From Pseudeuparius sepicola (taxonomy: Eukaryota; Arthropoda; Insecta; Coleoptera; Anthribidae), in assembly GCA_963920635.1 (NCBI GenBank), contig OY987304.1, forward strand, positions 30,752,365-30,816,364: a DNA stretch of 64,000 nt, in the 5' to 3' direction. The notes beneath the pieces are model-generated. The model had not been told where the DNA came from. It did no database searches and was given only the letters and a program-made list of their open reading frames with translations. The position numbers and the translations under genes are program-made. Positions 11,901 to 46,900 of this stretch are shown here, one piece after another (the stretch's first letter is position 1; every line of letters begins with the position of its first letter).

Positions 11901-14900
11901 CTTCCCTTATTCCGTAACTAAATACTTAAAAAACATACAATTAGGGTAAATAGACTCACCTCAAGTTCACCAGATCTCCATTCTTCAGATGAATGCACCA
12001 AATGGATCGTCTCATTGTCTAACATGAAATTTTCTTTAGAAGGACATCGGGGTATTCTGTGATGCCTACTTGTATTAATTGAGGAAATCAGTAGTAGCAT
12101 AGTCATGAAAAGTACTAGACATGACACCAAGAACGTTAACCAGCATGTGTTGATGTAAGCTAAAATGTGGGTGAAATTAGTTAGGATTGTCAATAAACTC
12201 CTACATAATAATTAAGTATTATACTGGAATACCTAACCCACCAAACAGCAGTGGCCACCTGCAAAAATATATAGTACCGACTACAGCATGGAAGTGTCGA
12301 GTTGTAAAATGTAGACAATTATCGAGGGAATTATGAAAGTAAAAGTTTCAAATTTGTATTTTAAAAAATGGGAATTTTTTATCGTTTCTCATGAAACAAT
12401 TTATACCAACTTCTTCTGCAAGTGGCCATCAATTGCATTGTAAAGTTAAGGGGTTGCATCTTCGATGAATATCCCTGTACCGGACATATTATCACAGAAT
12501 ATATACCTAGCCTACGTCAGCACTATTTATTCTGTGATATTATGCAGATTGTTTTTGGGGCTAGCTCTCTCGCCAGCCTATTTTCTCATTCATGCCATTT
12601 CAATGAACTAAACATATTAGGTACTCCAGAAAAAGTCAACTCTTCGTGCCAAATAAATTATAACTTCCTATAATACGAGCAACAAATATTAATTTCAAAA
12701 AACACTTACTTTATCAAAAATTATTATATTTTGTTTTATATTCCTTATCAAATATTTTGATAACCTTTTTAAACGTGACATTTTCTACTATACTAACTCT
12801 TTCTGATAGGCTGTTCGGGCAAAGAAATCACTAGATTATTAGAGAGTCACTGGTGAGTGTAACTTAAAAAAATATTCCCCCTGTTTAAAATTATTGGTAT
12901 ATAATATATCTACTTTAATGCTTTTTAGATCACCATGAATATATTTTTATTCACAACCATTGTTATATCTCTATTGATCAACAACTCCGAATCACTCTGT
13001 CGTACGCAACGAACCCAAAACCAACAAAACGGTACCACTTGCCTTTTAGATCATCTGGATCCTGTAGATCCCCTAAAGCTAAAGATAGAATACCCAGAGT
13101 ATCTTTATCTGTCGATAAAAGGGGGTGAGATACCAAAAAATGCATTCGATAAAGTTCAGCCAGTAAAAGAGCTCTGGTTTATTGGTGGAAATATTACAAA
13201 GATTCAAGAAGGAGCTTTTGACAATTTGGAGAACCTCCAGAGTATTTCGATCACCAATACTACCATCAAGAAATTGGAGAAAGGGACATTTACGGGGTTA
13301 AATAATTTGCACACGCTGGCACTTAGTGGTAAGTAATAATAATTATTCTGTTATACTTGGCTGTTTTTATTCTCGACTTTTTAACATGCCTGTCAATAAA
13401 AAAGACATGAAAATTATGGGAAAATATGTAGGTATATGGCATCTTTACACTAAATTTCAAGAAACGATCGCCCAAAAGTAACCAAAATTATACGCCGTGT
13501 TTAAATTACAGCTAACTTTGAATTCGATTTAAATAAATGCGAAGTGGTGATCTACTACTGTATTTTCTGCGAAGGATTCAAAGATGCAACCGCCAAATAG
13601 GGGACACTAGTTAGTTATCTATGTACTTTAAACAATTGTAAGTAGGTACCTAAACTTAACATTAGCAATTGCCTTTATCCAAAACAATTTGTTTTGGTTA
13701 AGTTAATAATAATGATTTATTACGGAGTATAGGTGCGAATCATAAATATCACCCCTATTTTGATTTTGATGGGGCATCATCAATTCGAAGCTCTAAAGAA
13801 GTATACCTACTTAGTATTCATTTCTCGCCCAAAGGACCCATTTATTTTTCGCATAGAGAAGACAGAATACAAATATGTCAAATGGAACCCAACTTTAAGT
13901 GCCAATTAATATACAGCGAGCACGTAAAGGTTGCAATAAACTCGGTAAAACGTTGTACTGTTCGATTAAAAATTAAGCCTGCTTAAAAATGGAACTTTGC
14001 AAAAAATAAGCACTACAATGTAGGTACAGTCGTCTAATAAAGGAATGTCCAAAACTTAATAATTTATGACAAATTTAAAATTTATGAAGGTCAGTAATAG
14101 GAGAAGATAAACTACTAAAATGAAAAAACAAGAAAAGTGCGTTATTTTAAATGACGCTATTAAAAATAGTAGTTGCCATTTAAAAAATATATAGATGACC
14201 TCATAGCTTGGTTAGTAATGACGTCACAAGAACGAAAAATATGTCAAAATTATGTTGGACGTCGAAGCATTTTTTTAATGGCACGGTAAGCAACATTTTA
14301 CCGAATTTATTCCAACCTTTACTGTATTGTAAAGTACAATTCAGGAATGTTGGCGTACACGCCATACGTCATTAATAAAAGTCAATGAATCAAGCAAATC
14401 GAGGCTATAACCTCCAGTCTCGCAGATTTAAAAAGGAAACATTAATTAATAGTTCTATACGCAACCAGATAAACGCAGACTGCCTACCTCGGCGAATTCA
14501 CCCAAATTTTAAATTTATTGCGTACCTATTCTTTTTATATAAATACAAATTTTACTGATAAAGTGATATTCGCATCTATCTATTGAGTGACAACAATGCA
14601 AATATGGAAGGTAGAGAGTGTTATATTCTTTAAAACTTTAAGACTCTGTATTTTTCTTATAAGGCTTTCAAATCGAGAAATTTATACACACCGGCAATAT
14701 TTTTCGCTATTCTACTGATACTGATCCTAGAAGTTTGTGCATTTAATACTGAATCACCCTGTTTACGGCGACACTCTTTAATCGTTGACTGAAATAATCC
14801 TCACCCAACGCTTTAATGTTACCACCTGGGCTACATTGACACGATTTTTCATGATGTTCTCTAAAACGGTCTACTACTCAAAAAAAAAAACACAAAACAC

Positions 14901-17900
14901 TTCTTTATGCTTCTAATACAATGTTTCAACATTTTGTGTAAAGCAAAATTTATTTAAGAAACTTAGCTAGCATGTGCGTTAGAGGTGCCCCCTAGCGGCT
15001 ACGGTAAACCTGACTATACAGGGTGTCCCGTTAATAATGGTCCATAGAGCAACTGCACATATTTGGGGCCAAAATATGACGATTGAGGCTAATATGTCTT
15101 ACAGAAATGTTGTTTGTTTAAGAGATACCGGGCGTTGAAGTTCATTTTTTGAAATTGAATTATAGCCACATCTCCCAAAATAATCAAGCTGCTGAGCTGA
15201 AATTTGGCACTGCTGTATTTTTGGGGATGGAGAATAAGCTGAAAATTACAATTTTTACGTAACTCACAGAGGGCGCCACTTGCGTTGTTTTTGGATCAAG
15301 CTTTTACTCTTAACTTTTTTGAGGTTGTCTTTTTTGTCTTTCAGTGCCATCACTTTAGAGCATCTTTTCATTCTGTAACAAAAAGGTACTCTTGTTTCAT
15401 AACGATAAAATCAACCGTTTGCGTTGAAATTTGCAAAATGTACCCCAAAACACCTGTTAACACCCATATTCAAAACATAAAAGTTTCAGCTACCACTTTC
15501 AAATGTTACAAATCGACTGTACATTTAAAAGGAAGAAAAAAATGCCAGATGGGCATCGGTCGAAACACCATTCGTTTTCTTGAAATAGAGTGTTCAAATT
15601 TTGCCAAGTTTCAATCCGTTCCATTTTGAAAACAAAACATTTTTGGTACATTGTTCATAGCAATTTTTTTCTCACTTTAAATGGTACAGTGAATCTGTAA
15701 CATTTGAAAGTAGCAGGTAAAAATTTTATTTTTCGAATGTTGGAGTCTATAGGTGTTTCGGGGCACATTTTGCCAATTTCAACGCAAACGGTTGATTTTA
15801 TCGTTATGAAACAAGAGTACCTTTTTGTTACAGAATGAACAGATGCTTTAAAGTAATGGCCCTGAAAGACCAAAAAGATAACCTCAAAAAAGTTAAGAGT
15901 AAAAGCTTGATCCAAAAACAGCGCAAGTGGCGCCCTCTGTGAGTTACGTAAAAATTGTAATTTTCAGATTATTCTCCATCCCCAAAAACACAGCAGTGCC
16001 AAATTTCAGCTCAGCAGCTTGATTATTTTGGGAGATGTGGAGACATATTAGCCTCAATCGTCATATTTTGGCGCCAAATATGTGCAGTTGCTCTATGGAC
16101 CATTATTAACGGGACACCCTGTATAAGGTCATGCATGATGATTTTCCACCAATCCTTGCCAAAGGTGAATGAAGTCGGTCATCAATCCGTTGAAAAGTTA
16201 TGGCAAAAAACTACATTTGGGGTTTCTTTCCAAGGGCACCTGGGGCCCCTAATTTTGAACTTTGAACAAAACAAAAAACACGGGCCTCTTAATTTTTTGC
16301 GCTCATTACGGCTATGTATTTTATAGGGTGGCACTCATTCTGGAACACACTGTATATCCCACTAAATATACATGATTGATATTTAATTAGTCTGCGGCTA
16401 CCTTTGAATAAAGAAAAAGAACCCCCAGGAATAAGGAGCAAATTTGGGCTTAACGCTCGACCGGGACAGTCTCTGCACAGGGCGGGATGCCGTTTCCGTT
16501 TTTACAGTGGCCCGCACCTTTGAGTTGTTTCCATAAACTAATCGAGGCAGAAATCCACGCTTATGTCTTTAAGTTTAAGAATCATTGATAATACAGCAAT
16601 TCTAATTTTAAGTTTCCAATCATGTAGAAGTAACTACCTACACCATCGCCTATGCCGCTTTGGTGCATGGCCTCAAAAGTTAATTTAAATAACAAAATTA
16701 CTTACCGATGGATTATTATCCTCAAACATTTTAGTTTTGGCGGTCAGGGAAGTGCCACAAGCCGCACAGCTAAACATAATATCTCGAAAAAGTATCTAAA
16801 ATACCACATACTGACACCGCGTCAGATATAAAAGCATTGTGTCAAAACTTGGTTACTTTTCAGGGCGATTTTCGTCTCACGTATTTTATAATACACATAG
16901 AGCTTTGACTTCTTCCTGGGATTCTTTATTCAATTCAAAGGCCAAAGGCGCGTACCCTCTTGCTTTCTTTATTTATAGGTAGGTACATTTTAATATTCGT
17001 ATTTCAGATAATCAGATAGAACAGATAGATGTTGGAGCATTCGATGGTTTAGAAAACCTACAGCAACTGATTCTGAACAAAAATCATTTAAAAAAGATAG
17101 AAGAAAATACGTTCCAAGGACTCAAACTTCTAAGAGAACTTCACTTTAAAGATAATGCGGTTGAATATATTCACTTAAATGCATTGAACAATCTTAAGGA
17201 ATTGGCGTTGGTGACAGCTGGTCTTAAAAGGGACAATAACATAGACGAGAAAGCATTACTTTTACCCCATGTATTTCGGTACAGAATTTATTATTATTGC
17301 TAATTTTTAGGATTGTTACTGTTTGTTGCTATTTAATATTATTAATATTCTGATAAAGCTTTAGCTTTAGTATTAAAATGAACTTACCAGTCTTAGGAGT
17401 AATAATTGATTGTTTCATAACAACCAAACACAAGCGCTCGACGTATTAAAAAAATACTGTTCGATTTCGAAAGCATGTACCTAAAGTAGGTACCTATCAG
17501 TGAAACGAGGTATTTCCTATATTTTCGCATAATATATTATAATTTTCATTGTCAAGTTAGCGCATCTGTCTGGTATTAGGTATTAAAATCAAGGTGACAT
17601 AATTTAATTTTCGACGCATAATTATGTCATTACGTCAATTTTTAGTTCCTGAAATCTCGAATACAGTGTGACTACGGATAATGTGGACACTGGGCAGTAT
17701 TAAAACTAGGGAAGAAAACTGAAAACTTTTTCATTTCAGATTTCGAAATAAAATAAGAATTTCAAAAGAAATGGCTTGTGGCATATGGGACAAAATGCTT
17801 TGGTAATTGGCAACACCAAACTAGTTTCCAATATCTAATGGAAATTATGTATGGGTCCTTCGGAGGTGTGCAGACCACGACAGGTACCTGTTTCGGGCTT

Positions 17901-20900
17901 GTTGGCCCTCATCAGGCAGACGTAGCGCACCTCAACCGAAAAGACCCAAACACGTTCGCTAAGTGAAATAGGAACTAGTATAATGCGGTGAGCATTAACC
18001 ATCCAACGCCATCTAGCTGGTACTGCCAAAACCAGAGAAATGTGAGTGTGTATATATCGACCGGTCGATCGACATATAAAAAGAACTCGGCAAAGCGGCG
18101 CGGCGCGGTGGAAAAAAACAGAAGAAGCATACATACGGGGGCCAAGAAATCGTTTGATTCATCACCGAGTATCTTCTAATATATAGAAATCAACAAGGAT
18201 CGAATCGTGAGTTTCAATCCTCGTGTGCTTACGTCTATAGCCAAACGATGATTAAACAAAATGAATATTTAGCGTCCCCATTATAATTTTAAAAGAAATG
18301 GCTTGTGGCATATGGGACAAAATGCTTTGGTAATTGGCAACACCAAACTAGTTTCCAATATCTAATGGAAATTATGTATGGGTCCTTGGGAGGTGTGCAG
18401 ACCACGACAGGTACCTGTTTCGGGCTTGTTGGCTCTCATCAGGCAGACGTAGCGCACCTCAACCGAAAAGACCCAAACACGTTCGCTAAGTGAAATAGGA
18501 ACTAGTATAATGCGGTGAGCATTAACCATCCAACGCCATCTAGCTGGTACTGCCAAAACCAAAGCAATGTGAGTGTGTATATATCGACCGGTCGATCGAC
18601 ATATAAAAAGAACTCGGCAAAGCGGCGCGGCGCGGTGGAAAAAACCAGAAGAAGCATACATACGGGGGCCAAGAAATTCATCACCGAGTATCTTCTAATA
18701 TATAGAAATAAACAAGGATCGAATCGTGAGTTTCAATCCTCGTGTGCTTACGTCTATAGCCAAACGATGATTAAACAAAATGAATATTTAGTGTCCCCAT
18801 TATAATTTTAAAAGAAATGGCTTGTGGCATATGGGACAAAATGCTTTGGTAATTGGCAACACCAAACTAGTTTCCAATATCTAATGGAAATTATGTATGG
18901 GTCCTTCGGAGCTGTGCAGACCACGACAGGTACCCGCTGTGCGCTACGTCTGCCTGATGAGGGCCAACAAGCCCGAAACAGGTACCTGTCGTGGTCTGCA
19001 CACCTCCGAAGGACCCATACATAATTTCCATTAGATATTGGAAACTAGTTTGGTGTTGCCAATTACCAAAGCATTTTGTCCCATATGCCACAAGCCATTT
19101 CTTTTAAAATTATAATGGGGACACTAAATATTCATTTTGTTTAATCATCGTTTGGCTATAGACGTAAGCACACGAGGATTGAAACTCACGATTCGATCCT
19201 TGTTGATTTCTATATATTAGAAGATACTCGGTGATGAATCAAACGAGTTTCTTGGCCCCCGTATGTATGCTTCTTCTGGTTTTTTCAAAGAAAATGGTAC
19301 TACGCAGTACCATTTTCTTTGTTTTTTTCCACCGCGCCGCGCGGCTTTGCCGAGTTCTTTTTATATGTCGATATACAGGGTGAGTCACATCTAAAGGCAG
19401 AGCCGAAAACACAAGGTAGAATTCGCTAAAATAAGCACATATGCTTAATAAACATTAGCTCAAAAACGCTTGGTTCTCCATATACAGAGTGTTGAAACTT
19501 TTCCAAATATTTTTAATTTTTTTCTAGCTCGTTTAGGAATTATTTTATACATATTATGGGTTGTCATTTTGTGCAATAAATTGGCCCTGTTCAGATGAGC
19601 AGCGGCGTAGATACAAATAATGTTATTTTAAATGCCAGCATAATCACCTTGACACTAGTTTAAAAAATCCGAAATTACGAAGAAGCTGTACCAGAAATAA
19701 AAAAAAATACCAAGAGGCACTTTTTGTTCCAAATTAAATGGGCTATCCAAAAAAGGCAAAATTTTTGGTTTTGCACAGGGCCGTACTACTTTTTTTCTAC
19801 AATTATTTACAGTAACTATTTGTACCTACGCCGATGGTGATCGGAACGGGGTCAAATTATTCCACAAAATGGCAACCGTCCAGTGTATAATGTGTACCAA
19901 ATTTGGTTGGAATTCCTAAGTGGGATCGAAAGAAATTGAAAAAATATGTTATTTTTGGAAAATTTTCAACGCGCTGTATATGGAGAACCAAGCTTTTTTG
20001 GGCTAATGTTTATTAAGCATATGTGCTTATTTTTGCGAGTTCTACCTTGTGTTTTCGGCTCTGCCTTTAGATGTGACTCACCCTGTATACACACTCACAT
20101 TGCTTTGGTTTTGGCAGTATCAGCTAGATGGCGTTGGATGGTTAATGCTCACCGCATTATACTAGTTCCTATTTCACTTAGCGAACGTGTTTGGGTCTTT
20201 TCGGTTGAGGTGCGCTACGTCTGCCTGATGAGGGCGAACAAGCCCGAAACAGGTACCTGTCGTGGTCTGCACACCTCCGAAGGACCCATACATAATTTCC
20301 ATTAGATATTGGAAACTAGTTTGGTGTTGCCAATTATCAAAGCATTTTGTCCCATATGCCAGAAGCCATTTCTTTTAAAATTATAATGGGGACACTAAAT
20401 ATTCATTTTGTATAAGAATTTCAGAAAAATCTTAAAAACGTCTAACATTTTCTTATGTTGTTCTCTTGATTAGGTATAATAAATATTTTTTTATTATTGC
20501 ATCGATTATCGCTCTGTCACGAGATTGACAAACTCAAAGTTGAATAAAAGTAAGTATAATATTTAAAAAACGAAACAAAGATAATGATTTAAAATTTTAT
20601 ATCATTTTATTCATCGCGACGAGCAGATTTCAAAAATCTCTAAAAATATCTCCAAAATATATTAAGTCGTCCATTTGTGCCGTTGTATAAATTTTGGTAT
20701 CGTCAAAAATCTGGAACTTTTATAGGATTTGTTCCCACCTCGAAAAATAAGAAAGGCAATTTTCGGTTGGACACCGGATATGTACAGGGTGAGCGAAACT
20801 CCCAGGCCTACTGCGGGAACACAAAAATCAAAATAAAATTTCGAAAAGGGGTTCTTAAAAGGGACACACTAAGGTCCAATTATGGCCGAAAATTATGACG

Positions 20901-28958: not shown

Positions 28959-31900
28959 CTGAAATAATCAAAACAATGAAAATATACTCAAAATTAAATA
29001 AACACCTAAATGATTACCTCTCAGTGCTTTCTACTGCTATGAAAATATCCAGTTCAATCGTTAGAAATCCTTTTACAGTACACTGCGACACCTGGAATAA
29101 CAGAAAATATAATATTGAAAAAGTTCCTTAAATCCTTGAAGAGCTAACCTGAACCTGTCTTTCCAATGCTTGTAACATGGATTTTAAGTTCAATGCTTCT
29201 GTGCTTTGATTCTGAAGGGCGTAACGTGCTCTATCTATCTGCTTCCTAGAATATAGCACACGCAAAGCACCGCCGCACATCGGACAGCACGCACCAGGAG
29301 GGGTGACACCTAAGAAAATTCTGAATTAGCTAAATGAATTTAATTAATTCATCGTCAAAATCATAAGTCTAACTATTGAAAGATTGAGGAACTAAGAATT
29401 GATAGCACATAGGAGGTTCCAGGGCCATAAAATGATCGTAAACCATAGGCGGCGTTATTTTCTTTTATTTTCAATGTGTAAAATAGAAAAAGCATCTTTA
29501 AAAATATTTATTAGATATGCCCTTTTTGAGGAAATTATTTACCTATAATATTTACGATCTAAGTAGGTAATTATCTTAATTCCAGGCAATTTTAATATAG
29601 CCAATTATTACATTTATTAGGTACTTTTGTATTAATTATGAGACTTAAAATTGTCGGTAGTTACACCTATTTGGAAACGACGGCCGATGTATTTGAAGAA
29701 TATTTTCAGCAAATGATAGAGCGGATTCCAAATAATTCCATAATAATTGATAATCCAAGTTATCATTTTAGACTAGAGGGGAAGCTTTCAACGAGTTCCT
29801 GGAGAAAAGCGAATATTATTGAATGGCTAAACAATAAGGGGCTGCAATTTGAAGAAGGAATGGTCAAAAAAGAACTTTTAAAAATAGCCAGGCAACATAG
29901 GTCAGGATTTAAGAAGTATGTAGTCGACGAAATGGCAAAAGAACGTGGCATAATTGTGCAACGCCTGCCGCCATACCATTGTGGGCTCGATTGTGAGTTT
30001 AACCCAATAGAGCTTATATGGGCCCAAATGAAAAAACATTTTGCAAGACATAACACTACTTAAAAGCTTAAGGATCTAGGGCAGCTGATGATCAATTCAC
30101 TGGACATGATTACTGCAGAAAGTTGGCGAAATGCGATACAACATGTTATTGCGGAAGAAAATAAAATGTGGAATTTTGATGAATTGATTGACGTCACTCT
30201 GGAAATTGAGACTCTTGGAATTGTAATATTATTTTAATAAATAAAATTCTCTATGTGAAATTGTATTTCCATTATATTATAAATATCAAATAGTTTGTTT
30301 TATTAGTGTCTTAAAATTTAATATTTTTGCAAAATGCTTCTGTTGGTTTTAGGAACAGGTAAAAACGATAATAAATGAATAACTTTTCATTTCCTTACCT
30401 GTCCCTTAATCCAAACAAACCATTTTGCAACCGACCCTCCGCCTATGGCTTATAATTTCCTTTATTAGCATTTTATTGCCTATTATTACTTGAAGATTGC
30501 GGGGTGCGCCCAAGGAAGAACGCAGATAAATACAATGAATAAATGGCAAAGCTTTTTGTCGGACCCAGATAGTCTCTTGAATTTATAATTAGGGCGGCCT
30601 GCTATCAATTCTATTTGAACAGAGTTTAATCATATCAGCAAAAATACAGTAAGCCAGTTTAATAGACAAAACTATAAAACTCGAAAAAATATTACAAATT
30701 CGACATTACTCCAAGAACCCAACATATCTAAGCCGCCGCTGAAAGTTTGAAGCCCATTTTTCCTGTGTGGTAGCTTTTATAGCCACTCTTAGAGACAACA
30801 TTTCAGTATAAAACCTACACACGTACAAAATTATTTTCTCTTCTCTAATCTAAGTCACTAGACATATTGAAATGAACATGTAGAAGTATAAGTATAAGTA
30901 TAAGAAGTCCAATTAAGGGCTTTTGCATCAAATTTGGGGAAAAAAGCGATGAAAAATTCCTATGATACCGGGATGGCTTACCACCCTTTTAAAATCTTTA
31001 TTTGTTGACCGATTTTGATAAAAAAAATTTGTTAGGCAAAGGCCCTTTCAACAAAGTGGGTAATTACTATTAGGGCTTTTTTTAGAAAAAAAGTTACTAC
31101 AGATTATTATTTGGGACTACTCTAAACCTATCTACACCCGTTTTTATTGTTCTAGACCAGACTAAATGCATTATTATTGGACTTTTAGAAATATTAATTA
31201 AGTGAAATTATTAAGATTAAACTTTATTTTTATCATTTTATAAAAAATGTAAGTATTGGTCAAGAAACCTTTGTTTTAATGTTAAAAAATAATATAATAA
31301 ACATCTAAAATTAAAAAATATAATATATACTTATTCTGCATTTTAGAAAAAAAAAATGGTACAGATTTTAAGTGATTCTAAACAAGAATGTGCAGTCAGT
31401 TTCTTTTGTAAAAAGAAAACCCTTAAGAGTGCTTTCTTAAATTCGAGCCAATCACGATTACAACCAAAGTTACCCTCATTGAATGCGCATTTTGAATACA
31501 GACCCAACAAATAAAGATTTTAAAAGTTCTTAACATGGAATAACACTGTATATAATGTAAATTCCTTGAACTTTGGAATGCGGGTTACACGAAAATGAGC
31601 AATGATTCTCAGTTATTTTCTAAAATTTATTTGTGGCGCAAACAGATCCATTTAATTTTTAATTGGGTTTTTCGCCACCAAACTGATTGAAAGACAACTT
31701 TTTCAAGTTGCCTGGAAAATTCATAAATTCTTAACACTGAATGAACGAAACTTTAAACGTGTACCTCAAAAAATAACTTCAACAAATTTGTTTTCTGAGC
31801 TTTCGGAGAATAAATCTTCCTCCTTTCTCAAAGATCATGTCACGTCAAAGTGAAGTGGCAGATTAATAAATTTCAGGTTAAAATGTCATGACAACAGAAA

Positions 31901-34900
31901 CAATAGCCTAGCCACCTGCCTGATATTGTACCCTGTGTTCTATCTAATTGTCTATACTAACTTCTCTTTGAATAAGTGGCAATAATATTTTACCGAATTC
32001 CACTGAACATTCAGCAACACAGTGGCCCGTATTTCCTAGAATAAATGCAGAATTTTTCGTCTATTTCCTACTTCTTCTTTTAGAATTGGTTTGGAACTAT
32101 CCCACAATATCCTATGATTGTTATTAAAGGAATGTTCACATATTTTTGACTTTTTGGTTAAAAAATAAAAATACATTAAGATCGATGCTAGTTAAAAAAA
32201 ACCATTTAATGAGTTACAAAGTTCAAAAAATTTAATTTATAAAATTCCTTGTGAATGTGGAAAGTTCTATGTTGGGGAGACTTTTAGGCCATTTAACGTT
32301 CGTTTAAAAGAATATAAAAATTATATCAGGCAAAATCAAATTTCGAAGTCAAAAATATGTGAACATTCCTTTAATAACAATCATAGGATATTATGGGATA
32401 GTTCCAAACCAATTCTAAAAGAAGAAGTAGGAAATAGACGAAAAATTAAAGAATCTGCATTTATTCTAGGAAATACGGGCAACTGTGTTGCTGAATGTTC
32501 AGTGGAATTCAGTAAAATATTATTGCCACTTATTCAAAGAGAAGTTAGTATAGATAATTAGATAGAACACAGGGTACAATATCAGGCAGGTGGCTAGGCT
32601 ATTGTTTCTGTTGTCATGACATTTTAACCTGAAATTTATTAATCTGTCACTTCACTTTGACGTGACATGATCTTTGAAAAAGGAGGAAGATTTATTCTCC
32701 GAAAGCTCAGAAAACAAATTTGTTGAAGTTATTTTTTGAGTTACACGTTTAAAGTTTCGTTCATTCAGTGTTAAGAATTTATGAATTTTCGAGGCAACTT
32801 GACAAAGTTGTCTTTCAATCAGTTTGTTGGCGAAAAACCCAATTAAAAATTAAATGGAAATGATTATCAGTTTTTCGTATATAATAGGTTCTCTCACCTA
32901 AACAATCTTTGTCCGGTAATCTGCTACATTCAACCCTTCCACAACGGTTTGCTTTTCCATCTCCAACCATTCCCACGGTAACGCAGCCTCCGTCATAATC
33001 CACGCTAACCATATCAGCATTGGCGGTACATTCCGATTCGTAACTCCTCCCATTGAAACCACAGACACGCCCGTTAGAGCGACATCGTCTTCGACACGCC
33101 CCTCGGTAGGCCAGGCGCGCGGAATCATGTGCCAAATGACACGGGGTGGGAAACTGGCGTCCTTCAATATCGCACACGGGTTCTGAGGGATAGGTCGAGC
33201 AATCTATTGCCCCGTCCACTGAAAAATTACGATGTTACATTACAGGGTTTACAATTAATTGGTTTAGTTACCGCATTCAAATTGCTTGCAAGGTTTATGC
33301 AGTAAAGAGAGACAGACTTGGGGGTTTGGCACGCATTTTTGCCCCCGAGAGCAGGAGTTTTGTTTGCAGGGTTTTTCGCATGGAAATAGTTCGATATCGG
33401 CGTCGTTCAAACCAGCACACCTAAAATTAAATTTTGTTGAGTGTTGAAATACGAAGGACCGCCTCTTGTAGACTCTGGAAATGTACATATAGATAAGATG
33501 AATATAGGAGTCCACTGAAAATTTGGCCTTGAAAAAATAGACGAAAGTTCCGCCCTAGAGTTATCCTTGTTTGTCAGCGCCGCAAAAGTAATAATATTTA
33601 GGTATGTTGGCATTGAATATTTCACTATTTAGTGTCACCATAATTTGTTGGTTTGTGGTACCATAGCAATATAAAGAGGAAATTTTCTGCGATCAGTCGC
33701 GATCTGTTTTCTGATCGAGATTCAATGGAAAGTAGTTTCGATGTTCTAAATCCGATTGTTGCCACAATACATTTTATCATCAATGTTTTGTTGCGAATAT
33801 AGCTGCACAATGACCATGCACACATATTTATAAAATTATCATAGTAAATCGTTGATAGGGAAAAAGTAGGACTGATGATATTACCATCGTTGGCAAGTTT
33901 TATGAAATTGGTGGGAATAAATAGATAGTTATTCAATGCAAATGTAAATAGTATTTTGGGTACACTGATAAGGCGCTAGGCGGAACTTTCATCTCTTTTT
34001 ATTCAAGGTCAAATATATTCAGTTTACTCGTCTACTAACCCTACGATTACGTTTCCAGAGTCAGTTTAGGATCATTTCTATTTGAAAGTTATAACAAAGT
34101 ACCTATTTAATTGCAAATACGGAGGAGCTATCCAAAACCATTTAAATTAACACTGCTTGTCGAGAATTTCTAAAGCATCTTATAAATTAAAGGAAAATGT
34201 AACGGGAGTAATTTATATAGGTATGCCAAAACTTCTGAAAACTGAGTAGAACATTTTCAAAACCGAGGCCTACTTTGATTTTTTCTGCTAAAAAACTTAA
34301 AACGCATAAAGGTCGAAGTAGGCTTAGGCTTTCGAAATTTTTCCTTAATAGCATTTGAGGTGAAAGATACAGAAAGGGCACTTTTCTAAAAAAAAAATAG
34401 AAAATGGTCAAAAAATCAAAGTAGGCCAAGACTTTTGAAATTTTGCAAACATAATCACTTTTTCATTTTAATTATTTGTGAAAAATTAGTTTTTTCAAAA
34501 TTTCCAAGGCATACATGCTTTTTTGAAAGTAAAATTATGTCACAAATTAATTAGTTTCAAACGAAGCAGGGCTGAACCCCAAAAGGTCAAATTTGAACTC
34601 GAAATTTACAAACAAACCGGGGATATAATGTAAATTTATTGAAATTAAGCGGCCAGTTAACTAACAGGCGTTTTTAAAGCTTTTACTTTTTAGCTTCAGA
34701 ATTGACATAAACATAAACATCCCGAAAAGTTAAGGCCAAGAAACTATTTTTTCAAAAAATAAAAAATATTATTTGTTTGCATTTTTTATATCAGGGGCCA
34801 ACAATTTTTAAATCTAACCGGTGCGGTTTGAAGACAGGCATTGTTTTTAAGTCGCTATTCTGTGATAATACTAAGTATGTCATTCAAATTTTTAAAAAAC

Positions 34901-37900
34901 ATGTCGTTTTGTAGCAGGGATGTTGTTGACAATGATCCTAACTGAACAAATTCACCACTGAACGAATTGTTTGGTCGAAAACTTGAAAACTACCTCTCTC
35001 CACTCCCCACCTCCCAAGAGAATGGTTTTTAATCGGATTAACGCATTATTTAAAAGGGCATTCTCTATATTACCAAGTTGAAAATCCCTGGCTGAAAAAA
35101 AAATTGCCAGAAAAAACGCCCATCACCAGTCACTACACCCCGACGCTCCCGAGAGAATTGCGTTCGGTCCGATTTTCGCCGTTTTTTTGAGAGGACGTTC
35201 ATTATATCCCCTGTTTCATGAATGCATAGTTGTAAAAAATTCTGGCAAAAATTACCCCTCACTCCCGAGAGAATTGTTTTTGGTCCGATTCTCGTCGTTT
35301 TTTGAGAAGACGTTCATTATTACCCGTTTCACGACGAATGAATAGTTGAAAACAAAAATTTGGCAAAAATTATTACTCCTCACTCCTCCCGCAGAATTAT
35401 TTCTGGTCCGATTCTCGCCGTTCTTGAGAGGACGTTCATTATACCCCGTTTCACGAATCATCCGTAGTTGAAAAAAAAAAAAATCTGGCAAAAATTACCC
35501 CTTACTCCCGATATAATTGTCTTTGCTCCGATTCTCGCCGTTTTTTGAGAGGGCGTTCATTATACACCGTTTAACGAATCCGCAATGTAAAAAATCTGGC
35601 ATAAAGTAGGTACCCCTCGCCATTCGCTAGAGAATTGTTTTTGGTCCTATTCTCGCTTCATAATCTAAACGAATTAATTTCCTTAACAAATTAATGAAAA
35701 CAACAAAATAAGTTTTACCAAAAAAATTGAGTCAAACAAAAATTATTAGAAGAAAATATGGGAGCTTATTAACGATATCGTGGGTAATAAAATCAAACTT
35801 AAAATGTATGATAATTTCTGAAAAGGCAGTAGGCTAACCTTAGTTGATATATTATGTGTGGTAACCCTGATGGGACCTGTATTGGTAGTCTTGCTAACCG
35901 TAAGTTGTTGGTCAATGTTCTGTACAATGTTAGTCATCGTATGGGCTTGTATATAAAAAAGAACAGTAAATGAAATATTATTTTCAACAAGTTATCTACA
36001 GTAACTCCTATTTTTAAAACAGATTCCCGAACATAGCTCTTGATCAACAATTGCGCAAAGATTTTCGAACACTCAAAAACAGAATAATCAGTTTCTATAG
36101 TACACACAAAGTAATAAATAAAATTCAGCATGGGTTCCTTAAAAAATGCAAGAGTGAAAAAACTGCCTCAAACCTTGTCAATTCGGTGCTAGTCTCCGTG
36201 GAGGGATTTGGGAGGTGCCTTACCATATTGCTGGATCTTGCTAAGGCGTTCGACACCGTCTCCCATGAGATGCTGCAGCTGCAGAATTATGGAACTATAG
36301 GGGCCCATGCCTTGACCTTCTAAGAAACTATTTATAGCAGAGAGTTCAAATAGTAGAAGTACGAAACATATCTTAAGTGATCCCGTTCTATGTATTATAA
36401 AGAACCGCCACCGTCCGTCCACCGACGACATTTTAGTAGACCCTCCACTAACCGTGTGGTTAATTTGTTTTACATCATTTACATCATGACTGAATCACCC
36501 TGTGTACTGATATACTAATATCACAGACCTATATAGCTTAGCGAAGCTATATAGGTCTGTACTAATATGCTATAATATGGTTAGTCCAATAAAGATGTGC
36601 TCGGCGCATAGGGGTCGCAGAAAAAATCCCAAACAGGCTGATTTTTTCAGGTTTATTTTTAAATATCTATATGTTACATGTCGGGGTAAAAGGTCTTGCT
36701 TAACAGTCAAACATACAACAAGCTTGACGCGTGCGCGCTAGACCCGGTCTTGCGGCCCTAGACCACCCCTCCGTTGCTGTCAGGTCAGGTCTGTGGCCCC
36801 GTCCAATGGACCTTATCCCACTCAACTAGTATCTGGCGCCAGAGAATGTATGCTTCTTTTTCACTTGGTTTTGTTTTGGACGTTATTAGAGCATTGACAG
36901 AGAAACAATGAGTGTTTTTTTTTCAGGGTTGCTTGGGGACTGCCTCCTGAGTGTTGAACCAAAAGATCACACTCGAACTCCTGGTAAGAACTGAGCTATA
37001 GCTCACCCTATAGGGTGGTTTCCTGAATAATACGGGTGGTTTCCTAATGCCTGTTTTACATTGACAATTTCTTCATGAATTAATTCATGAAGTCACTTCA
37101 AGGACAAATTATTATAAAAAGTCGTGTATTACACTGGCAATTTCTTCATGAATTAATTCATGAATTTCTCAAGTTTTGCGTGAACTTCAGGAGTACTAAC
37201 ATTGAAAATTTGAATATAAGGACGGTTATATTTTGATACTGATTTTGTTTGAGGCATTAGACGAGGAAGAGGAGAGTACATAGTTTTAAAGATAATATAC
37301 TTAGATAAAAAGTGTGTGAAATGTTACAATATGTTTTATTTATGTGCCGCGGTGGCGTCGCTCGTACCGGCGCTGACTTTTTAGGCTGCATGTTTTTCTG
37401 CCTTCGATCGACCTTGGTTCGAGGCAGGCGCATGCATATGTGTTTAAAGAAAAACACCGCTATGGCCAAGAGCGCTGGACAAATGTGGGTTCACGGTGTT
37501 GCTCCTAAATAGCTTTATCCGTGTGCTTTACTAATTGTCCTACACTCACTGGGATTACTACGGTTTTCTAGGGGTTTCCGTAGTACTTGAGCGAATGCTA
37601 TCCTAGTTCTATCGGGAAAAAAGTCGGCCCTAGCCGCAAATGGCAACGAAGACAAAATAAAAGTAATTGCCCCTCTCCCCCGCGCAAGCATGTGGTTGCT
37701 TCTGGGGTACTCCTAGTTTGGAGTATTGTGAGGATGCGAATTATAATAATTATTATTATTATTCCGCTGCCAAGGCACAGCTCCCTCATTCACGAAATAA
37801 TCACAAATCTCTTCTTGGGCATCAACGCAAGCATGTCTTGGTCAGCATGTTTGGTAAGAAAGTCCAAATTGAAATCTATAGTCTTTATCAAGCTCTTCTA

Positions 37901-40900
37901 GGATGGAAGTAGGACATTCGGGTCTCAAAAAGTATGTAATGTGCACAATGTTATGGTATACACTTTTTCCACATTCAAAGTAATTGTAGTCAAAAAACTC
38001 TAAATCGTTTGGCTAAAATGCCAAATGTATTTTCAACTACTCTTCTAGCTAGACTTAATCTGTAGTTAAAGATGCTTTGGATGAAAATGGATATGGTTAG
38101 AAAATATGTTCTGATAGGGGAAATGCAGCACAAAAAAATTATTTTGTTATTTATTCTCTTGTGTTGGTATCAATGACGTCAAAACCTATAGACGTGGTGC
38201 CCCATTGTTAAAATGCCCTTTATTTTGACTCCAAGATTAAATATATCCGTACTACTCTAAAAACATGCTACAAAAAAAGACAGAAAGTCAACCATCAACC
38301 AACTATACACCCGGTGATTCCCGGTTATAGTTCCTCCAGAATCACACTTAGATATCGCATGTTTTTTCTTGTTTGGGGGCGCCGGAAGCATCGGAACCTC
38401 ACCTGAAGACTCGGGGGATGGTCTAACGACGCCAGCCTCCGAGCCCAGAGTCGAAATAAGTTCGCTACGGCTCGACAAAAAGGGGCAATTTCTGACAATC
38501 TCGCGACATTTTCGGAATAATTTAATGGAGCGCTTAGATTGTGATTAGTTCTGGGCGTCAAGCGTTTATCAAAACAAACCTGTCTATAGGTTCTGACGTC
38601 ATTGGTTGGTATTCTCTAGAATCTGACATAAGGTGACAAAAAAATTCATCAATTTCTTCATCAGTGTAAAATAGAACTTGTCGTGAATTAATTCATGAAT
38701 TTATTCATAAACTTATACATGAATTAATTCATGAAGAAATTGTCAATGTAAAACAGGCTTAAGCATTTTTCAGAGCAAAATGACCTTAGTAAAAGTTGTA
38801 GGGGATTAAAGTATGAACAATTTTTCCTCATACCATTTTTTTGTACTCGAATACATAACGAGTTACAGAGGCATTACTATTTATATGACTAATATTCCGC
38901 ACGCAGCAGGGGTGTACCTACTTGTGAACATTTTTTTTTACAAAAAAATGACCTTAATAAAGGTTTTAGAGCACGAACTTCTGGTCAATTTTTTCTTATA
39001 AACTTTTTTTGTGTCTCCAATACTGGATGATTTACAGGGAATTATATTTTTTTAAGTAAGTTTTGTCATATAATGCCCTGTAAATCATTACGTATTAGAG
39101 ACACAAAAAAAATTATAAGAAAAAGTTGATCAGAAGGGCATCCTTGAAAACTTTTGTACAGGTAATTTTTTGTAAAAAAATGTTTACAAGACCACCTATG
39201 CAGCGTGAGGAATTTTTATCATATAAGTAGTGGGCTGTAACTCCTTATGTATTAGAGATACAAAAAAGACTTACAAGGAAAAGTTGTTCATACTTTGATC
39301 CCCTACAACTTTTATTCGGGTCATTTTGCTCTAAAAAATGTTTAGGAAACCACCCTATAGCTAAATTCGTACCAGGAGTTCGAGTGTGATCTTTTGGTTG
39401 GACACTCAGGAGGAGTCCCCAAGCAACAATGAAAAAATCATCCTGTTTGGATTTTTTTTGCAAAACTATCGGACTAGGTCGAAATCAAACAGTAGCTGGA
39501 GAACGTAGGCACAGCACCATGCAATCTGATGTACCGAGCGTTCATTTGAATTCGACCTCAAGTTAGCGTTGGAAATTCAAATATACTCGTATTGGACCGG
39601 GAGATAGTGACAGATTTTTGGACGTGATTTTACTCAGTATGCCTTGCAAAGTATTCCGAAGTTAATGATATTTTGACATGTTATGTGTGGGTAGTCTGCC
39701 GAGTAAAATCTGAGTTTTCGACCTCGAGGACCCTGTGCTAATTTGGGGATGACCGAAAAACCTCGACATGTTCGGACTCGTTTCGGTTTTTCGCTTATAA
39801 CTTGTAAACCATACGTTTTTAGCAGAATACACCAATGTACAAAGTTGAAGATCATTAAATTTCCTTTAAAAATCACTGTTCAGAAGTACTATTTGATTCA
39901 GTATTCACCGAGATATAAGGATTCAAAGTTACAAAAAATTTCTCAAATTATAAAAAATTGTTTCCGGCCCGTCTACAAATCAAACCATGCATGAGATAAC
40001 GATCTTTTATCTTTGTCTCTTTCACGCCTTCCATGTCAAACTCATATCTTTCTCTGATAGTGTTACCATAATAGGAGAAGACATCGATCTTTTGGTTTTG
40101 CTGACAGCCTTAGGTTCTTCTAAAATGAACATTTATTTTCTGAAGAGTGGGAGAGGAAACACCCCTGCTGTTTTGTATTCTTCCCAGGTAATACAAGTAT
40201 ACGAGAAAAACCCTCGGCTCTCAATGACTGACGCATCACCAAACCAAATTCTTGAAGCTGGAGAGAAGTTCCTAGTGAAATTGTACGGTGGTTCCCTTGA
40301 AACAGGATCCCCATAACCACGACAATGGATGATGCTCCAAACCATGTTCGAAAAATAATTCGATGTAAATGTACTACAGGGGGCCTGTAGCTGCAATAAA
40401 ACAGGACTTCGGTGCTCTTCCATGTGCACGAATTGCTATGGTACCGTTAGGGTGGGTCCAAAGGGCGATTATTGCCACGTGATCTTGTATTTTAATAATT
40501 AATTTTTCCGCGTTTCTGAACAGGCTGCCAATGAGAAGTATGCAAGTTCTTTTTATGAAAATGCTGAAAAAAGGATGGCACACCTTTCGCGCATGTCCAA
40601 GTACACTTTACATCGAATAACTCGTTTAAATGATTTAATAACATTCAATTTAAACAGTACTTAGACATGCGCGAAAGGTATGCCATCCTTTTTTCAGCAT
40701 TTTCATAAGAACTTGCATACTTCTCATTGGCAGCCTGTTTTTCGAATAATTGAAAACTCAGTTTTTCACATGAAGAACCCAGGATGACCTTATTATTGTG
40801 AGAATATGTGCCACATAATGCCCTTTGCAAGGCATACCGAGTAAAATCACGTCCAAAAATCTGTCACTATCTCCCGGTCTATATTGTCTGATGATAAGTT

Positions 40901-43900
40901 TCGATGATTTGCGATTTAACCTTTTGACAACTGTCAAAAATCAAAAAGTGTTATTTCCGTTTTTGAATTTGACCAAATAAGGTCGACGCGTTTGCGCCCT
41001 GTTCCTCGAATAATAATAATAATTAATAATAATTCTCACCCTCACAATACTCCAAACTAGGAGTACCCCAGAAGCGACCACATGCTTGTGCGGGGGAGGG
41101 GGGCAATTACTATTATTTTGTCTTCGTTGCCATTTGCGGCTAGGGCCGACTTTTTTCCCGATAGAACTAGGATAGCATTCGCTCAAGTACTACGAAAAAC
41201 CCTAGAAAACCGTAGTAATCCCAGTGAGTGTACGACAATTAGTAAATCACACGGATAAAGCCTATTTAGGAGCAATACCGTGAACCCACATTTGTCCAGC
41301 GCTTTTGGCCATAGCGGTGTTTTTCTTTAAAGACATATATGCATGCGCTTGCCTCGAACCAAGGTCGATCGAAGGCAGAAAAACATGCAGTCTGAAAAGT
41401 CAGCGCGGTACGAGCGACCCCACCGCGGCCCCAATAATTATTAACAATAAATAAAAAACATAGGCGGACGGTATTTGGAGGGATGAGTACCTCCTAAACA
41501 GAATCTTTTTGCGTGTGCTTTCTATATAATAATTAAAAGATTAAAATTATTTAATACAAAATATTAAATATGTATTTTAAATTTTGTTCTACATCATTGA
41601 CAGTCGTCGTTGAGGTCAATGAAATGCCTTGGTCTTCTATGTAGTAGTCTGTAGTCTAACTGGACGTGCAGACGTCTGTCAAAAGTTGATTAGGATGGTT
41701 TGGTATTGTTATGTCATAAATTTTCTGTGCGTGTGTCCTGATGAACTCTCTTACAGTCGGTATGTTATGGTCATGGTGTATTGTCCGGCTCTAAACATAC
41801 CATTCCGCCCGAGCCGCCATACGAAGACATTTATTTTGAATAACCCAAAAAAAGCAAAAGAGCAATGACCAATTTGTTTCCTTTGTTGTTAGCTAAATAA
41901 TCTAAATTAAACGTCCAAAGCAAGGTTTTAATTTACAAACAGGTAATAAGACCCTCCCTATATACGCCTGCGCCACATGGTGTTTTGTTGCAAAAACCCA
42001 TTCAAACAAAAAGTGTTGTGAAATTCACGTGCGTATTTCGTTCTTTGGAATATTCCGCGTTAAAATAATGTTTACACAAGAACAAAAAGCATGTATTATT
42101 TTAGAAACGGTCGGAAAGTTAACGGACTGTGGACGTATTCTGTGTAAGACTGCTATCAGGAATTTCAAGAACAGTTTCGTGGGACCCACAACAACGTTTG
42201 ATACTACACGTTAAAAAGGGTTCTCTTCGCACTATCGTGCAGCTTTTATCGAGAAACGGAGAGTGTGGAACGAAAGAAGGAAAATGGCCGACCGACAGTG
42301 CGAACAGAGGAGCTTAAGGAAAATGTCCGGCAAGTTATGGAGGAGGCCCCAGACTGTGTGTGCGAGTTTTGGCGCAGCTAGCTGGAGTAACTGATGGTAC
42401 CTGGCATAGTGTTCTAAAAAATGTTACTCTGCGTCCCTACCGCTTAACTTGCTATCCAGAAATTCGTAATGTTAACTATCGGCGTAGAGCAGAGTTTTGC
42501 CATTGGGTCAACAACCAGGACATGATTTTCTGCCCCAATGAAGCCGGTTTTCATCAAATCGGCTATGTTTATTCCCTAAACATGCGAATCATCCCCAGAA
42601 AGTTGGTTTTTAATATATGCTGTTCGCAGAAGAATAATAGTCGGTCCAATTTTCTTTAATGTGTTACTAACTGCTCAAAAGTATAGAGGTTGAGAAGAAA
42701 TTATTACACCTTTTAGGTATAAATCCGCTTGCCCATGAAGAAATTGGTAGAGTTTATTTTCAACAAGATGGTGTTAGAGTACACGCTGCAGGTGAATCGA
42801 TGATGTTACGCAACATTTTTCAAAATCGCTTGGTGTGCCTAAACTCGGAACACGAATTTCCTCAGAGATCTTGCAACATACCACCTTGCGATCTCTTTTT
42901 GTGGAGAACGCTATTTTCCAAGTTTGTATGAACAACTTAGATCAACTACAGGAGTCGATTTCGGGAGAAAAATGTTTTTAATTCTGTTCAAAAAAGGTGG
43001 TAGAAATGTTTGGAATAAGGTGGGAGTCATTTACAACAATTTTTGTAATGTTTCTTAAAAGTTTTTTTTGGTTTATTAAAATGTGTTTATTGGATGTCCG
43101 TTTTTATTTATCATTATTGTTCACAAAAAAATGAGAAACGGTTGGGGTTTGAACCCGGGCCATCAGATTGAGAAGAATGAACGCTCGATATTTTGGATAG
43201 CTCCTTGCACCTAATACAAAACACAACTTTACTTTGCTAGACACGTAGATGGATATGTAACGCCATTCCGCCCGCACACTGGCACATAATGTGGGGGACA
43301 ATTGCATGGCAAAGTCGTATAGGCCGAACTACCGTCACTTTCGCATTGCTTTTTTGAACAAATGACCTCCCCTGCATAGCACGCACACTGGTTGCATTCT
43401 ACACGCCATGAAGAACCGTGTGGATGTTGGGTAACTCCGACAAGACATGACGTAGGAGGAACACACGGAAGGGGTTGGCATGCGCCGATTCGTCGTCCTT
43501 CGCAACGGCAGATTTTTAGGCATCCCTTGCCACTACTTGGAATCCGCACCAGGGAATTTGCAGGCACCTAAAAATGGCAATATAAAGAGTTAATAAAATA
43601 TCGATAAGTGAACGCGAAAACTCAACATTATCTTTGTGTAATAATATAATACTTAAGTATATACTGCGAGTCAAAATCACTCGGAATTAATCAAAGACAC
43701 CAACCATACAAGCAAGAAATACTTTTTGCCTTTTGCATTGCAGAGATCTTAAGAGAGGAAATGAAATCACCAGGGCTTCAAACATTTGGATGCCATATTT
43801 TAAAACATATTACTTAATTATTTAGAGAAAGTAACAATTTTTTAAATATTTATATAATTTCCTTTGAGTTTAAAAAATAACGACATAGGCGAGGGGTTCA

Positions 43901-46900
43901 ACCCCAACCGTGCTTAAAATTTTTGAACGGGTCAAAGACTCCTGTACCTTGTATATCGTTCTTGAAAATAGTAGAATAAGAATGCCTGTGTATAGTAAGT
44001 TTTGTTATTTGTCTAAAAGAATGTTCTCCATTACTGGTCAGAATGGAGTCTATTCTTTGTGAAAAGGGAGGTGTAATGTAAACAACCAAACCTGTATGTA
44101 CTCGAACAATAACAATAATTGCTTAGGTAAGGTAGAACAGTAATTCAAGTCAGTACGTAAGACTCAATATTATAATCCACAAGTTGTATTCAAACCACTG
44201 ACGAATACATTGTGTAATCAAGCCGAACGAGAATATCATTTCTTCATCCCTACTATCCCCTATCACGACAGTTGGGCAGTTACCACCTTTTACATATGTG
44301 ATTCATTTGTCAAGCAACACTTTTTGTTCCGTTGTTTTTGTAATGCACAATATAAAGTGGTAAAAAGAACATAATGTCCAATTAAAATTTATAGGAACTC
44401 CAGTTTCACATAGTTGACGTTTCCTATACATCGATCAATTTATGTCGTACTCACCATATAGGGCGAAACCTCACCCATATTACATCCAGGACTACAATCA
44501 TAACTTTTGCATTCTGCTCCATGTACACAATCTCTATTTAGGAGGCAAATTTCTCCCGCACCAACTTTGCAAGTGTTGCCTCTACAAGGGCTAGATACAT
44601 GCCCTGCGATTCCAGGATATTCGATCTTGGAAGGCCGGGCGTAATCCTGTAACCGAATGCAGGATCCTTCTTGGTCGTCCGAAGACAGAGTCTGGCAGAT
44701 GGATTCTGGGGTATACATGCTTGAGGCTCTGGACCAGTCCACGCATTGAGTTAGGACTTCCAGACAGGAAGAGAGACATATTTGGGTAGTATGAGTATCT
44801 CTGGTAATAGAAAATTATTATTAGGAACTGCACAACAAAAATATACATTGTTTGTATACCTGGAGCAAGGTTTGATTTGCATTGTACACGCTATGGTTTT
44901 CCCCAGCTCTGGATCGCACTTTTCAGGTCCATGTAGAGGCAAAGTTATACCTAGAAAAGCAGCTATCATAAAGTGTTCATCATTTTAAACATATTCTTTT
45001 TACCTAACACAGTAATATTTCTTCTTTGTTTCCAAGCCTCGGCGTCACCTCTAGCCGCGTCATCGGCATCTGTTGTGCAAGAACGGAACAATTCTGTTGG
45101 TCTAGCATTAAAGTTGATGCAAAACGAAAGACCGTCACAACCTAGCTCACATGGTTCATCAACTGTAATATAAAAATAGACATAGCATAAGCAGTATGAA
45201 GGAGAATCTGCTCTTGCCTTCATCTAAACAACTCCTCAAAGCCTCTTCCGCGGGCTGCGCTAAACAGCGGTTGGCAAGATCGTTCCAATCGTCAGCGAAC
45301 GATCTTGTAAACGTTCGTGCGCAAAGGTTCGCGCACTGAGTGGTACGCGCACGTGCGCAACAGTGCCATTTTGCGCTATCGATTCCCACCCTTTCAATTT
45401 TTGATGTTCCAGAAAGCGGGGCTGGTACAGAAGGTGCCGACGAGTCTGCTTGTAGGAAGCATTGCCAGAAATAATCCTAAGGAAAAAATATTTTAAAGTA
45501 TAAAGTGTCATGTTGCCAAGTAGATTGTACAGATAAGGAGACAACTCAATCTTAGTTTGGAGGTATTATTTACTAACCTGCGGCAAGGGAGGTCCACAGC
45601 CACCCATCTCAAACCCGTCAATAATTTCCTGAAACGTTCCAGACGTTGCTAATACCTTTTTGCAGGTTTCCCTGCACCTCATGTTGTTTGACTTGTAACA
45701 ACAATGCATATCTTAAAATATAATTTGTCGGGATTTATGAGCTTAGACAGTTTCAAAATAACTTACGTTTGTGAGTACCCTTCACTGGAGTCACTTTGAT
45801 AACAGATCTAACACATTCAAGTACCTTGGGACTTACTTCATCACATTCATCTCGAAGTCTTTGTCTTTGGTCTTTTGTGGGTGAAAGATGTGACTTAAAT
45901 ATGTCTCTAAAACAAAATTTAATACTTAAAACTCCCCCTGTTTCATATTAGCAACTGTATACGTCCATTTTGTGATTTTACGGCTTTCTTCTATTTTCTA
46001 AGCCTGTATTATGGAATTATGGCGTAAAGAGTCAAAACAAATTAAAACGATCTTGATTAAGAAGATACGAAAGAAATCTCAATACCTATGTGTTACACTT
46101 TGTGTAATACAAGATAGTAAATTTCGGTCTGGTTGTGAGAATTATAAAAACAGTGTCTTTTTAAACATAGTTTTTAGAGCTTTTTTAAATTATAATTTAA
46201 AGTAAGAGGCGAACAAACCATGTTATTCATATTTATATAAAAAAATCTACATCAAATGTGGTGAAATAACATTAAGTGAGCGTTTCATTTTTGTAATTTA
46301 ATTCTTACAGCAACAAACTCCCTCACAGCAACTTCTGCACAAAGTGTGCCAAGGATGTTGATCAAAACAAGTGTCAACAGGGACGATAACAACGGACTAC
46401 CTAAATCTGGCGTCACAAGTGGGCGGAGCTTCACGAATCGTCCACATGTTAAATCATTGGATTTTTATTGACAATGATCAGAGCGTGTTTTGGGCATAAT
46501 TAAATAAGCCATTCCATAGTAATTTTTATAATCTTTTTTTTTTTATTTTTTTCTCCTTTACTTATTTTCGCCTAGTGGTAAAAGGTGGGTTGTTATTAGG
46601 TAATAGTTGTGGGCGTTTACAGTAGTGTGAGGTTATATTTTTAATGGTTAGGTTTAACTTTCATGTCTACAATTTTGATCATGATTCTGTAAGCACTTAG
46701 AACACTGAAAACTTTTTTGTTGTTTCAGATTTTACACTTTTTTGTTTTTGATTGTAAACACTAAAGACCTACAGCGCTAATACTATAATATTAATACACC
46801 ATCAGTGCGCACAAGCGTCTCGAATATATTTTGTACAAACCTCATGGCACGACAGAACAAGAACACCGAACACTACGTTTGTGAAGCTTTGCCCAGTTGT

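Follow-up and report, generated by a model that had tools for sequence, protein, structure and literature searches.

How an array of hammerhead-bearing repeats that changes strand midway came to be inserted in one piece, and by which machinery, is the question raised by positions 17764-20411 of the 64,000-nucleotide stretch analyzed here (Pseudeuparius sepicola contig OY987304.1; the whole stretch is referred to as the window). A first-pass annotation had described this insert as a retrozyme-like element, and its hammerhead-type motifs in tandem, protein-free repeats bear that description out. The reading that we consider probable is that the insert is an animal-type retrozyme, that Penelope-like element (PLE) machinery inserted it by copying RNA from both DNA ends, and that the inversion was made at insertion. 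More specifically, the paired outer ends that the element has in common with the PLEs of the same genome suggest that elements of this kind are likely moved by Penelope machinery.

Outer ends of the insert and its relatives

As previously annotated, four hammerhead cores lie in the insert, two per strand, and the motif scan that recovered them found none in 100 shuffles. They occupy 17879-17915 and 18406-18442 on the minus strand and 18954-18990 and 20225-20261 on the plus strand; each contains CTGATGA, GAAA, and GTC, which we take to be the standard hammerhead core letters, and all catalytic letters are intact, with a single stem II change in the second motif. The reference monomer (527 bp, 17879-18405, minus strand) starts at the base following a cleavage site and includes everything up to the next such site, and the units are spaced 527 and 519 bp apart, in line with the ~520-527 bp proposed earlier. 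The described turn from direct to inverted repeats is located at 18935-18938, a head-to-head junction of 4 nt belonging to neither arm, where a third minus-strand ribozyme is cut so that 10 nt are left. The left arm (17764-18934, minus strand) comprises ~2.2 monomers, and its outer (3') end is at a position that we call site S, ~119 nt past the cleavage site, after GCCATTTCTTTT. The right arm (18939-20411, plus strand) comprises monomers with two nested inserts and finishes on the outer (3') side at site L, ~152 nt past the cleavage site, after AAATATTCATTCTGTTT, and thus ~33 nt further. The stretch from S to L forms a tail present at this end only (20381-20411, plus strand). An 11-bp direct repeat, ATAAGAATTTC, had been reported to flank the whole insert; it is exact, extends to 12 bp when the next A is counted (17753-17764 and 20412-20423), and occurs exactly twice in the window; the two copies form a target-site duplication.

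To place this insert among its relatives, one assembly of the genome (769 Mb, 16 contigs) was searched. With the element as the query, 455 matches were obtained from the best 39 of 3202 first-look candidates, and our locus sample consists of the window insert and 38 others among the matches listed, all mapped from the base after the cleavage site. A search for further copies with target duplications, suggested in the first-pass annotation, thus yielded a family of at least 39 loci, to which a monomer-only search (39 of 1222 first-look candidates scored) added others. The 39 loci hold 112 full-length units, with monomers of 519-537 bp and arms ranging from less than one to ~12 units; 28 loci are head-to-head, with both 3' ends outward, and 11 are one-armed. 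Two of the 39 loci, L013 and L034, hold ~12 or more units and carry some variants in only part of these units, a possible sign of later DNA-level amplification. An exact flanking repeat of at least 10 bp was found at 27 of the 39 loci (12-13 bp in 20 cases), compared with 24 of 1482 mismatched left/right controls. The duplications are 88% AT, as against 70% in the flanks, in the 23 loci with clear duplications, a comparison that omits L010, L015, L022, L027, and L038.

The outer ends were counted in 27 head-to-head loci in which both are present (L038, which lost its right 3' end, was left out), and 25 of these have one S end and one L end. A strict script made 19 of the 25 calls; the others (L010, L012, L017, L021, L024, and L032) were called by reading, mostly because letters common to the duplication broke the script's motif rule. 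Since the one-armed loci use both sites (6 S and 5 L among 11, by reading), near-equal use of S and L is a fair baseline, and under equal, independent site use at least 25 mixed pairs among 26 would arise with a chance of 4e-7. The S end may be found on either side of the insert, meaning that the pairing holds within one insertion and not per fixed strand. Seven more head-to-head loci were picked after the pairing rule had been noted, to test it: four could be resolved with a 12-13 bp duplication, and all four have S+L ends, while L067/L068 and L077/L078 have an unresolvable left end. The S and L end positions are observed directly, and from them we infer a division of labor with one site per DNA end.

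Two adjacent 3' ends separated by a tail of 30-40 nt are a trait of PLEs, and the element has it. The autonomous PLE of this genome was compared by means of an endonuclease-region frame in the window (32196-32561; 150 of 8971 first-look candidates scored), which has at least 150 genome matches and corresponds to the C-terminus of a protein of 809 aa (L064, 909-3338). This protein matches the Pfam reverse transcriptase (RT) family (E 1.4e-10), and Pfam does not score its endonuclease part. Among 7993 scored candidates, 2075 were relatives; the 120 listed include an Anolis carolinensis protein with 36% identity over 98% of the query, P0066, which carries Pfam GIY-YIG (PF01541), and P0030, which its source names a predicted GIY-YIG endonuclease. 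Several of the named best-matching relatives among the matches listed are from beetles. Another open frame (L063, 354-3518, minus strand; 1054 aa) appears by eye to be an RT like that of a long interspersed nuclear element (LINE) fused in frame to a PLE C-terminal part; L063 was accordingly set aside as a full-length PLE (LINE-like RT plus 5'-truncated PLE by eye), and L064 was used. Nine pairs of PLE copies within ~4 kb of each other occur among the matches listed, eight outward and one tandem. Seven of the eight outward pairs could be resolved (L057/L058 could not), and all seven combine S and L ends with repeats of 9-16 bp. The short PLE end finishes in AAAAATTAAATGG, of which some copies lack a few letters, and the long end in GCGCCACAAATAAATTTTAGAAAATA, with changes in L047 and L062. 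In the full-length L064, S is at the start codon of the open reading frame (ORF), and the tail consists of the ORF's first codons.

It might be argued that LINE-type machinery moves the element and that its likeness to PLE ends is coincidental. LINEs are named as alternative candidates in PMC7229834 (this and the other papers are cited here from part of their text), the genome contains the LINE-like RT frame of L063 (by eye), and the element has no sequence link with the examined PLE. Against this explanation stand the two fixed internal starts ~33 nt apart, one per end, which are common to the genome's PLE (7/7), and the match of these paired starts to the tail described as unique to PLEs (PMC11167929); we regard it as highly improbable.

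Inner junctions and the origin of the inversion

The first-pass annotation took the inverted array, and not one monomer, to be the inserted unit. This holds in the sense of a single insertion event, given that the duplication spans the entire insert, but the array is not the mobile unit. The inner junctions differ in all 28 head-to-head loci, the closest two lying 10 nt apart in one coordinate, and so each insertion produced its own inversion, which no mobile unit brought along. Overlaps of 1-7 bp are present at 11 of the 28 junctions (at least 2 bp in 9 of them, where random blunt joins would give an overlap of at least 2 bp in 16%), 15 contain 1-127 nt of filler, and 1 is blunt; a 57-nt overlap at the L021 junction is taken as an alignment effect. 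The filler in L017 is 98% identical over 128 nt to L063 3696-3823, upstream of the LINE-like frame, a sign that the template may have been switched to the RNA of another element in the course of integration.

Snap-back self-priming, in which a folded-back cDNA serves as the primer for its second strand, would also yield an inverted repeat. It has been proposed for head-to-head PLEs in the A. vaga work, on an antisense template, from palindromes at the inverted junction (PMC3846280), and the monomer studied here does contain palindromes (ACAGGTACCTGT and ATCGACCGGTCGAT). Arms made in this way should be joined near the same coordinate. The inner-end positions of the two arms are unrelated, however, with 6 of 28 loci in which they are no more than 50 nt apart compared with 5.4 expected by chance, and the joints show the short overlaps or filler described above. 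Self-priming also leaves unexplained why the second outer end lies at a defined second start site, beside the same duplication. Overall, we find this explanation very unlikely.

The two arms of a locus are related to one another. Considering variants present in at most five loci, 29 are common to both arms of a locus, compared with a permuted mean of 3.2 (0/5000 permutations; 28 loci); for the rarest variants (at most two loci), 10 are shared between arms versus a mean of 1.12, a number reached by 173 of 5000 permutations. In addition, 20 of 27 loci have a left arm that is more similar to the right arm of the same locus than, on average, to those of other loci. Private variants with at least three units covering them (n = 249) are confined to one unit in 197 cases, are present in all units in 16, and are found in some units in 36; 13 of these 36 are in L013 and L034, leaving 23 without them.

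The most direct view of an insertion site comes from L040, which sits inside a copy of a miniature inverted-repeat transposable element (MITE). Its flanks plus one 13-bp repeat align gap-free, over 181-182 bp and at ~95%, to uninterrupted MITE copies, namely three in L040 and one in the window; only 18-19 bp of this alignment lie left of the repeat, because the host MITE copy lacks ~220 bp further left, and the repeat is aligned with two mismatches. This empty site indicates that the insert arrived there as one event. The MITE of L040 is present as three copies in tandem, 1147 bp apart, and the retrozyme was inserted in a neighboring copy.

These data bear on an origin at the DNA level, that is, a satellite or tandem array inverted by later recombination, or two separate insertions in opposite orientations. 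The private variants restricted to some units (36/249, 13 of them in L013 and L034) are in its favor, and some amplification may occur. Such an origin is at odds with flanking duplications that enclose the whole head-to-head insert, with the single event read from the empty site, with 28 distinct junctions in 28 loci, and with the variants that the arms of one locus share, and we give it hardly any credence.

Arms longer than 165 nt (49/56) were copied through the cleavage site, which means that their template was circular or uncleaved and not a cleaved linear monomer. An accumulation of 5' ends near the cleavage site, as would be produced by run-off on cleaved RNA, was considered (8/56 within 10 nt versus 2.2 expected, p 0.0016) and dropped, as p rises to 0.18 when every position is scanned. 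Collectively, the junctions and arms fit two cDNAs made from one break on a circle or an uncleaved multimer, and both templates fit equally. The remaining explanation that we weighed is priming from one side of the target, after which the RT jumps to a second RNA and repair captures the other DNA end. The L017 filler and the 11 one-armed loci among 39 agree with it. A single RT that jumps would nevertheless yield direct and not inverted arms, and it would offer no reason why, in 25 of 27 loci, the far end uses whichever of S and L the near end does not; we judge this route unlikely.

Insertion by PLE machinery from both DNA ends could proceed as follows. RNA transcribed from tandem monomers would undergo self-cleavage at the hammerheads and be closed into ~527-nt circles, with the uncleaved multimer as the alternative template. 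The PLE protein, perhaps as a dimer, would make cuts ~12-13 bp apart in the two strands of an AT-rich target, and from each cut end reverse transcription would start at an internal site of the RNA, S for one end and L for the other. Reverse transcription around the circle, or along the multimer, may then produce arms of less than one to ~12 units. The two first-strand cDNAs would be joined head to head through short homology or filler, and gap filling would create the target duplication, making the inversion a product of integration.

We further postulate that animal retrozymes are satellites of PLEs, and that one ribozyme-made circle is copied simultaneously from both ends of a break by enzyme halves that are each committed to one site; we would put the chances of this broader proposition only a little above even. 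If it is true, a two-ended start accounts for inverted PLE copies and their "tail" without antisense self-priming. The paired S/L ends constitute a mark of the helper of retrozymes that can be searched for in any animal genome, and the near-perfect pairing of one start site with one DNA end is a specific, testable rule bearing on PLE integration that self-priming does not predict.

Hammerhead motifs and further features of the window

The first-pass annotation drew stem III as 5 bp closed by two bases. Two bases are too few to close a hairpin, and a stem III of 4 bp capped by a GUAC loop is therefore the better drawing. Across the family, 150 of 167 motifs keep every catalytic letter, and at least two intact motifs are present in 37 of 39 loci; judging from their letters, self-cleavage of these motifs is plausible. 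Changes are less frequent in the whole hammerhead motif (24/1170 locus-positions) than elsewhere in the monomer (675/18837), and GAAA is changed at 1 of 156. We do not claim selection on the hammerhead core, as the 10 changes among 273 CTGATGA positions match the background. A covariance search with Rfam had been proposed as a check, and its outcome was mixed: all four motifs have Hammerhead_HH9 (RF02275) as their best match, at full model length, yet with 24-29 bits (E 1.5e-4 to 5.6e-3) they do not attain its gathering score of 52, and no Rfam family attained its own gathering score in the window. MIR533 and other weak Rfam matches in the window were set aside as effects of the inverted repeat. 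The 26-nt core pattern had no exact match in viral_contigs and genome_contigs.

Several points weigh against insertion of a retrozyme by PLE machinery from both DNA ends. Regarding the ribozymes, the motifs stay below the Rfam gathering score, and CTGATGA is conserved no better than the remaining monomer (3.7% versus 3.6% of positions changed). For a 71-nt motif piece, moreover, the predicted energy minimum is -29.7 kcal/mol as opposed to -16.9 kcal/mol for the drawn hammerhead (a gap of 12.8), so that the hammerhead is not the modeled minimum fold and misfolding would compete. Anole PLE ribozyme mutants still inserted, with unprocessed RNA as the main substrate (PMC11167929), which speaks against a need for circles and makes multimers as good a template as circles. 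Variants confined to some units suit multimeric templates or later DNA duplication.

Regarding the ends, the sampled loci are the best-scoring ones and are biased toward long arrays, and six of the 25 S+L calls depend on reading. The pairing has exceptions in L015 (S+S), L022 (L plus another position), and L069/L070, the latter belonging to the seven loci added later, without a duplication and with neither end at S or L. L017 counts as L only behind an internal deletion, the repeat of L010 does not adjoin its S end, and L027 is without a clean duplication. Among the seven further loci, six were preselected with a visible L end, and the test thus covered the other end only; the short end of L073/L074, counted as S+L, lies ~10 nt before S.

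Regarding the helper, the monomer shows no similarity to the examined PLE (best BLAST E 0.34, outside the element), and this PLE has no Rfam hammerhead match, so the true helper may be another PLE family. A start-site hairpin common to the retrozyme and the PLE was considered and rejected; stems can be drawn in both, yet the fold of the retrozyme does not surpass shuffled sequences (z 0.01; z -1.88 for the PLE). With respect to dependence on the one PLE family examined, neither sequence nor start-site structure is in common.

Transcription of the insert in either direction had been predicted to give unit-length RNAs. The left-arm ribozymes are indeed 527 nt apart, and a 527-nt unit would come from the minus strand only; the two plus-strand cleavage sites are 1271 nt apart, because a palindrome and a MITE-like insert sit between them. 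The palindrome (36 bp, 19286-19321, nested in the right arm within one monomer) has perfect arms around a 4-nt center (CAAAGAAAATGGTACT ACGC AGTACCATTTTCTTTG). The MITE-like element (19372-20089) is bordered on either side by TA/TATA and carries terminal inverted repeats of 151 bp; other copies lie in L040. Four frames of at least 90 aa in the retrozyme insert had no Pfam match above the cut-off (best TraE, E 0.027), and the element contains no frame for a PLE RT or a GIY-YIG endonuclease, proteins that are encoded elsewhere in the genome.

The insert had also been placed in an intron of a host gene, a location that we could not establish: a strict motif scan found no leucine-rich-repeat exon downstream, and the same scan missed the leucine-rich-repeat frames upstream of the insert (12929-13336 and 16983-17303). 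Elsewhere in the window, a truncated head-to-head PLE at 31622-32858 has a tailed left end, an untailed right end, and a flanking repeat with two mismatches, the edges and the repeat being recognized by eye; it shows the same pairing of ends as the seven PLE pairs. Its neighbor is a RECK-like gene (32815-45476, minus strand), whose nearby frame at 32815-33234 encodes a Kazal domain; two frames of this gene were tested, both Kazal, one of them with the RECK fibronectin-type-I module. A hammerhead-like pattern at 56859-56892 (minus strand), with no evident stem III, is possibly a minimal PLE hammerhead; it is near a PLE-like RT fragment (57159-57455, plus strand) that was recognized by eye, without a Pfam match.

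Comparison with known systems

Plant long terminal repeat (LTR) retrozymes resemble the element in being non-autonomous, in carrying hammerhead repeats, and in the RNA circles proposed for them (PMC4918200, PMC7761336). They have type III hammerheads, LTRs, a tRNA primer site, and 4-bp duplications (PMC4918200, PMC7761336), whereas the element here has a type I core, no LTR structure that we could see, and 12-13 bp duplications.

The animal non-LTR retrozymes of PMC7229834 are closer: they share the type I core, the tandem protein-free repeats, the arrangement as dimers to multimers, and a low GC content (below 45-50%; 43.3% here), and retrozyme-like repeats are reported there in insects among other invertebrates. 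Their expressed monomers of ~170-400 nt are shorter than the 519-537 bp found here; the discussion in the same paper allows circles of 150 to more than 1000 nt. The part of PMC7229834 available to us contains no description of arrays that are head-to-head, end as PLEs do, and are flanked by duplications of 12-13 bp. As to the helper, PLEs are named only as a strong candidate (PMC7229834), and animal retrozymes are stated to have no conserved motif from which a helper could be deduced (PMC7761336). The first-pass annotation regarded the arrangement as undescribed, which needs qualifying: inverted PLEs with a tail and a target duplication are in print (PMC3846280), and it is for retrozymes that we found no report of PLE-type ends, in a search of the open-access literature.

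PLEs themselves provide the nearest parallel in the form of the insertion. In the biochemical work on them, two adjacent internal start sites are used, both strands are cleaved and extended, and targets are AT-rich; the anole PLE protein is predicted to be a dimer, and its start site is alike on the top and bottom strands in vitro (PMC11167929). PLEs of A. vaga have an inverted pseudo-LTR, an optional tail on one inverted repeat, and a target duplication (PMC3846280), and the position of S at the start codon of L064, with the tail inside the ORF, agrees with these pseudo-LTRs. The tail is 31 bp in A. vaga and 30-40 bp generally, and mobilization of a foreign gene in trans has been reported (PMC3846280, PMC11167929). 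The element differs from PLEs in having no RT/endonuclease frame and a hammerhead with a hairpin stem III. It shares with them the head-to-head structure, the tail on one inverted end, the target duplication, and the AT-rich sites (PMC3846280, PMC11167929); and while the tail is optional in those accounts, almost every head-to-head copy here has it at one end and not at the other.

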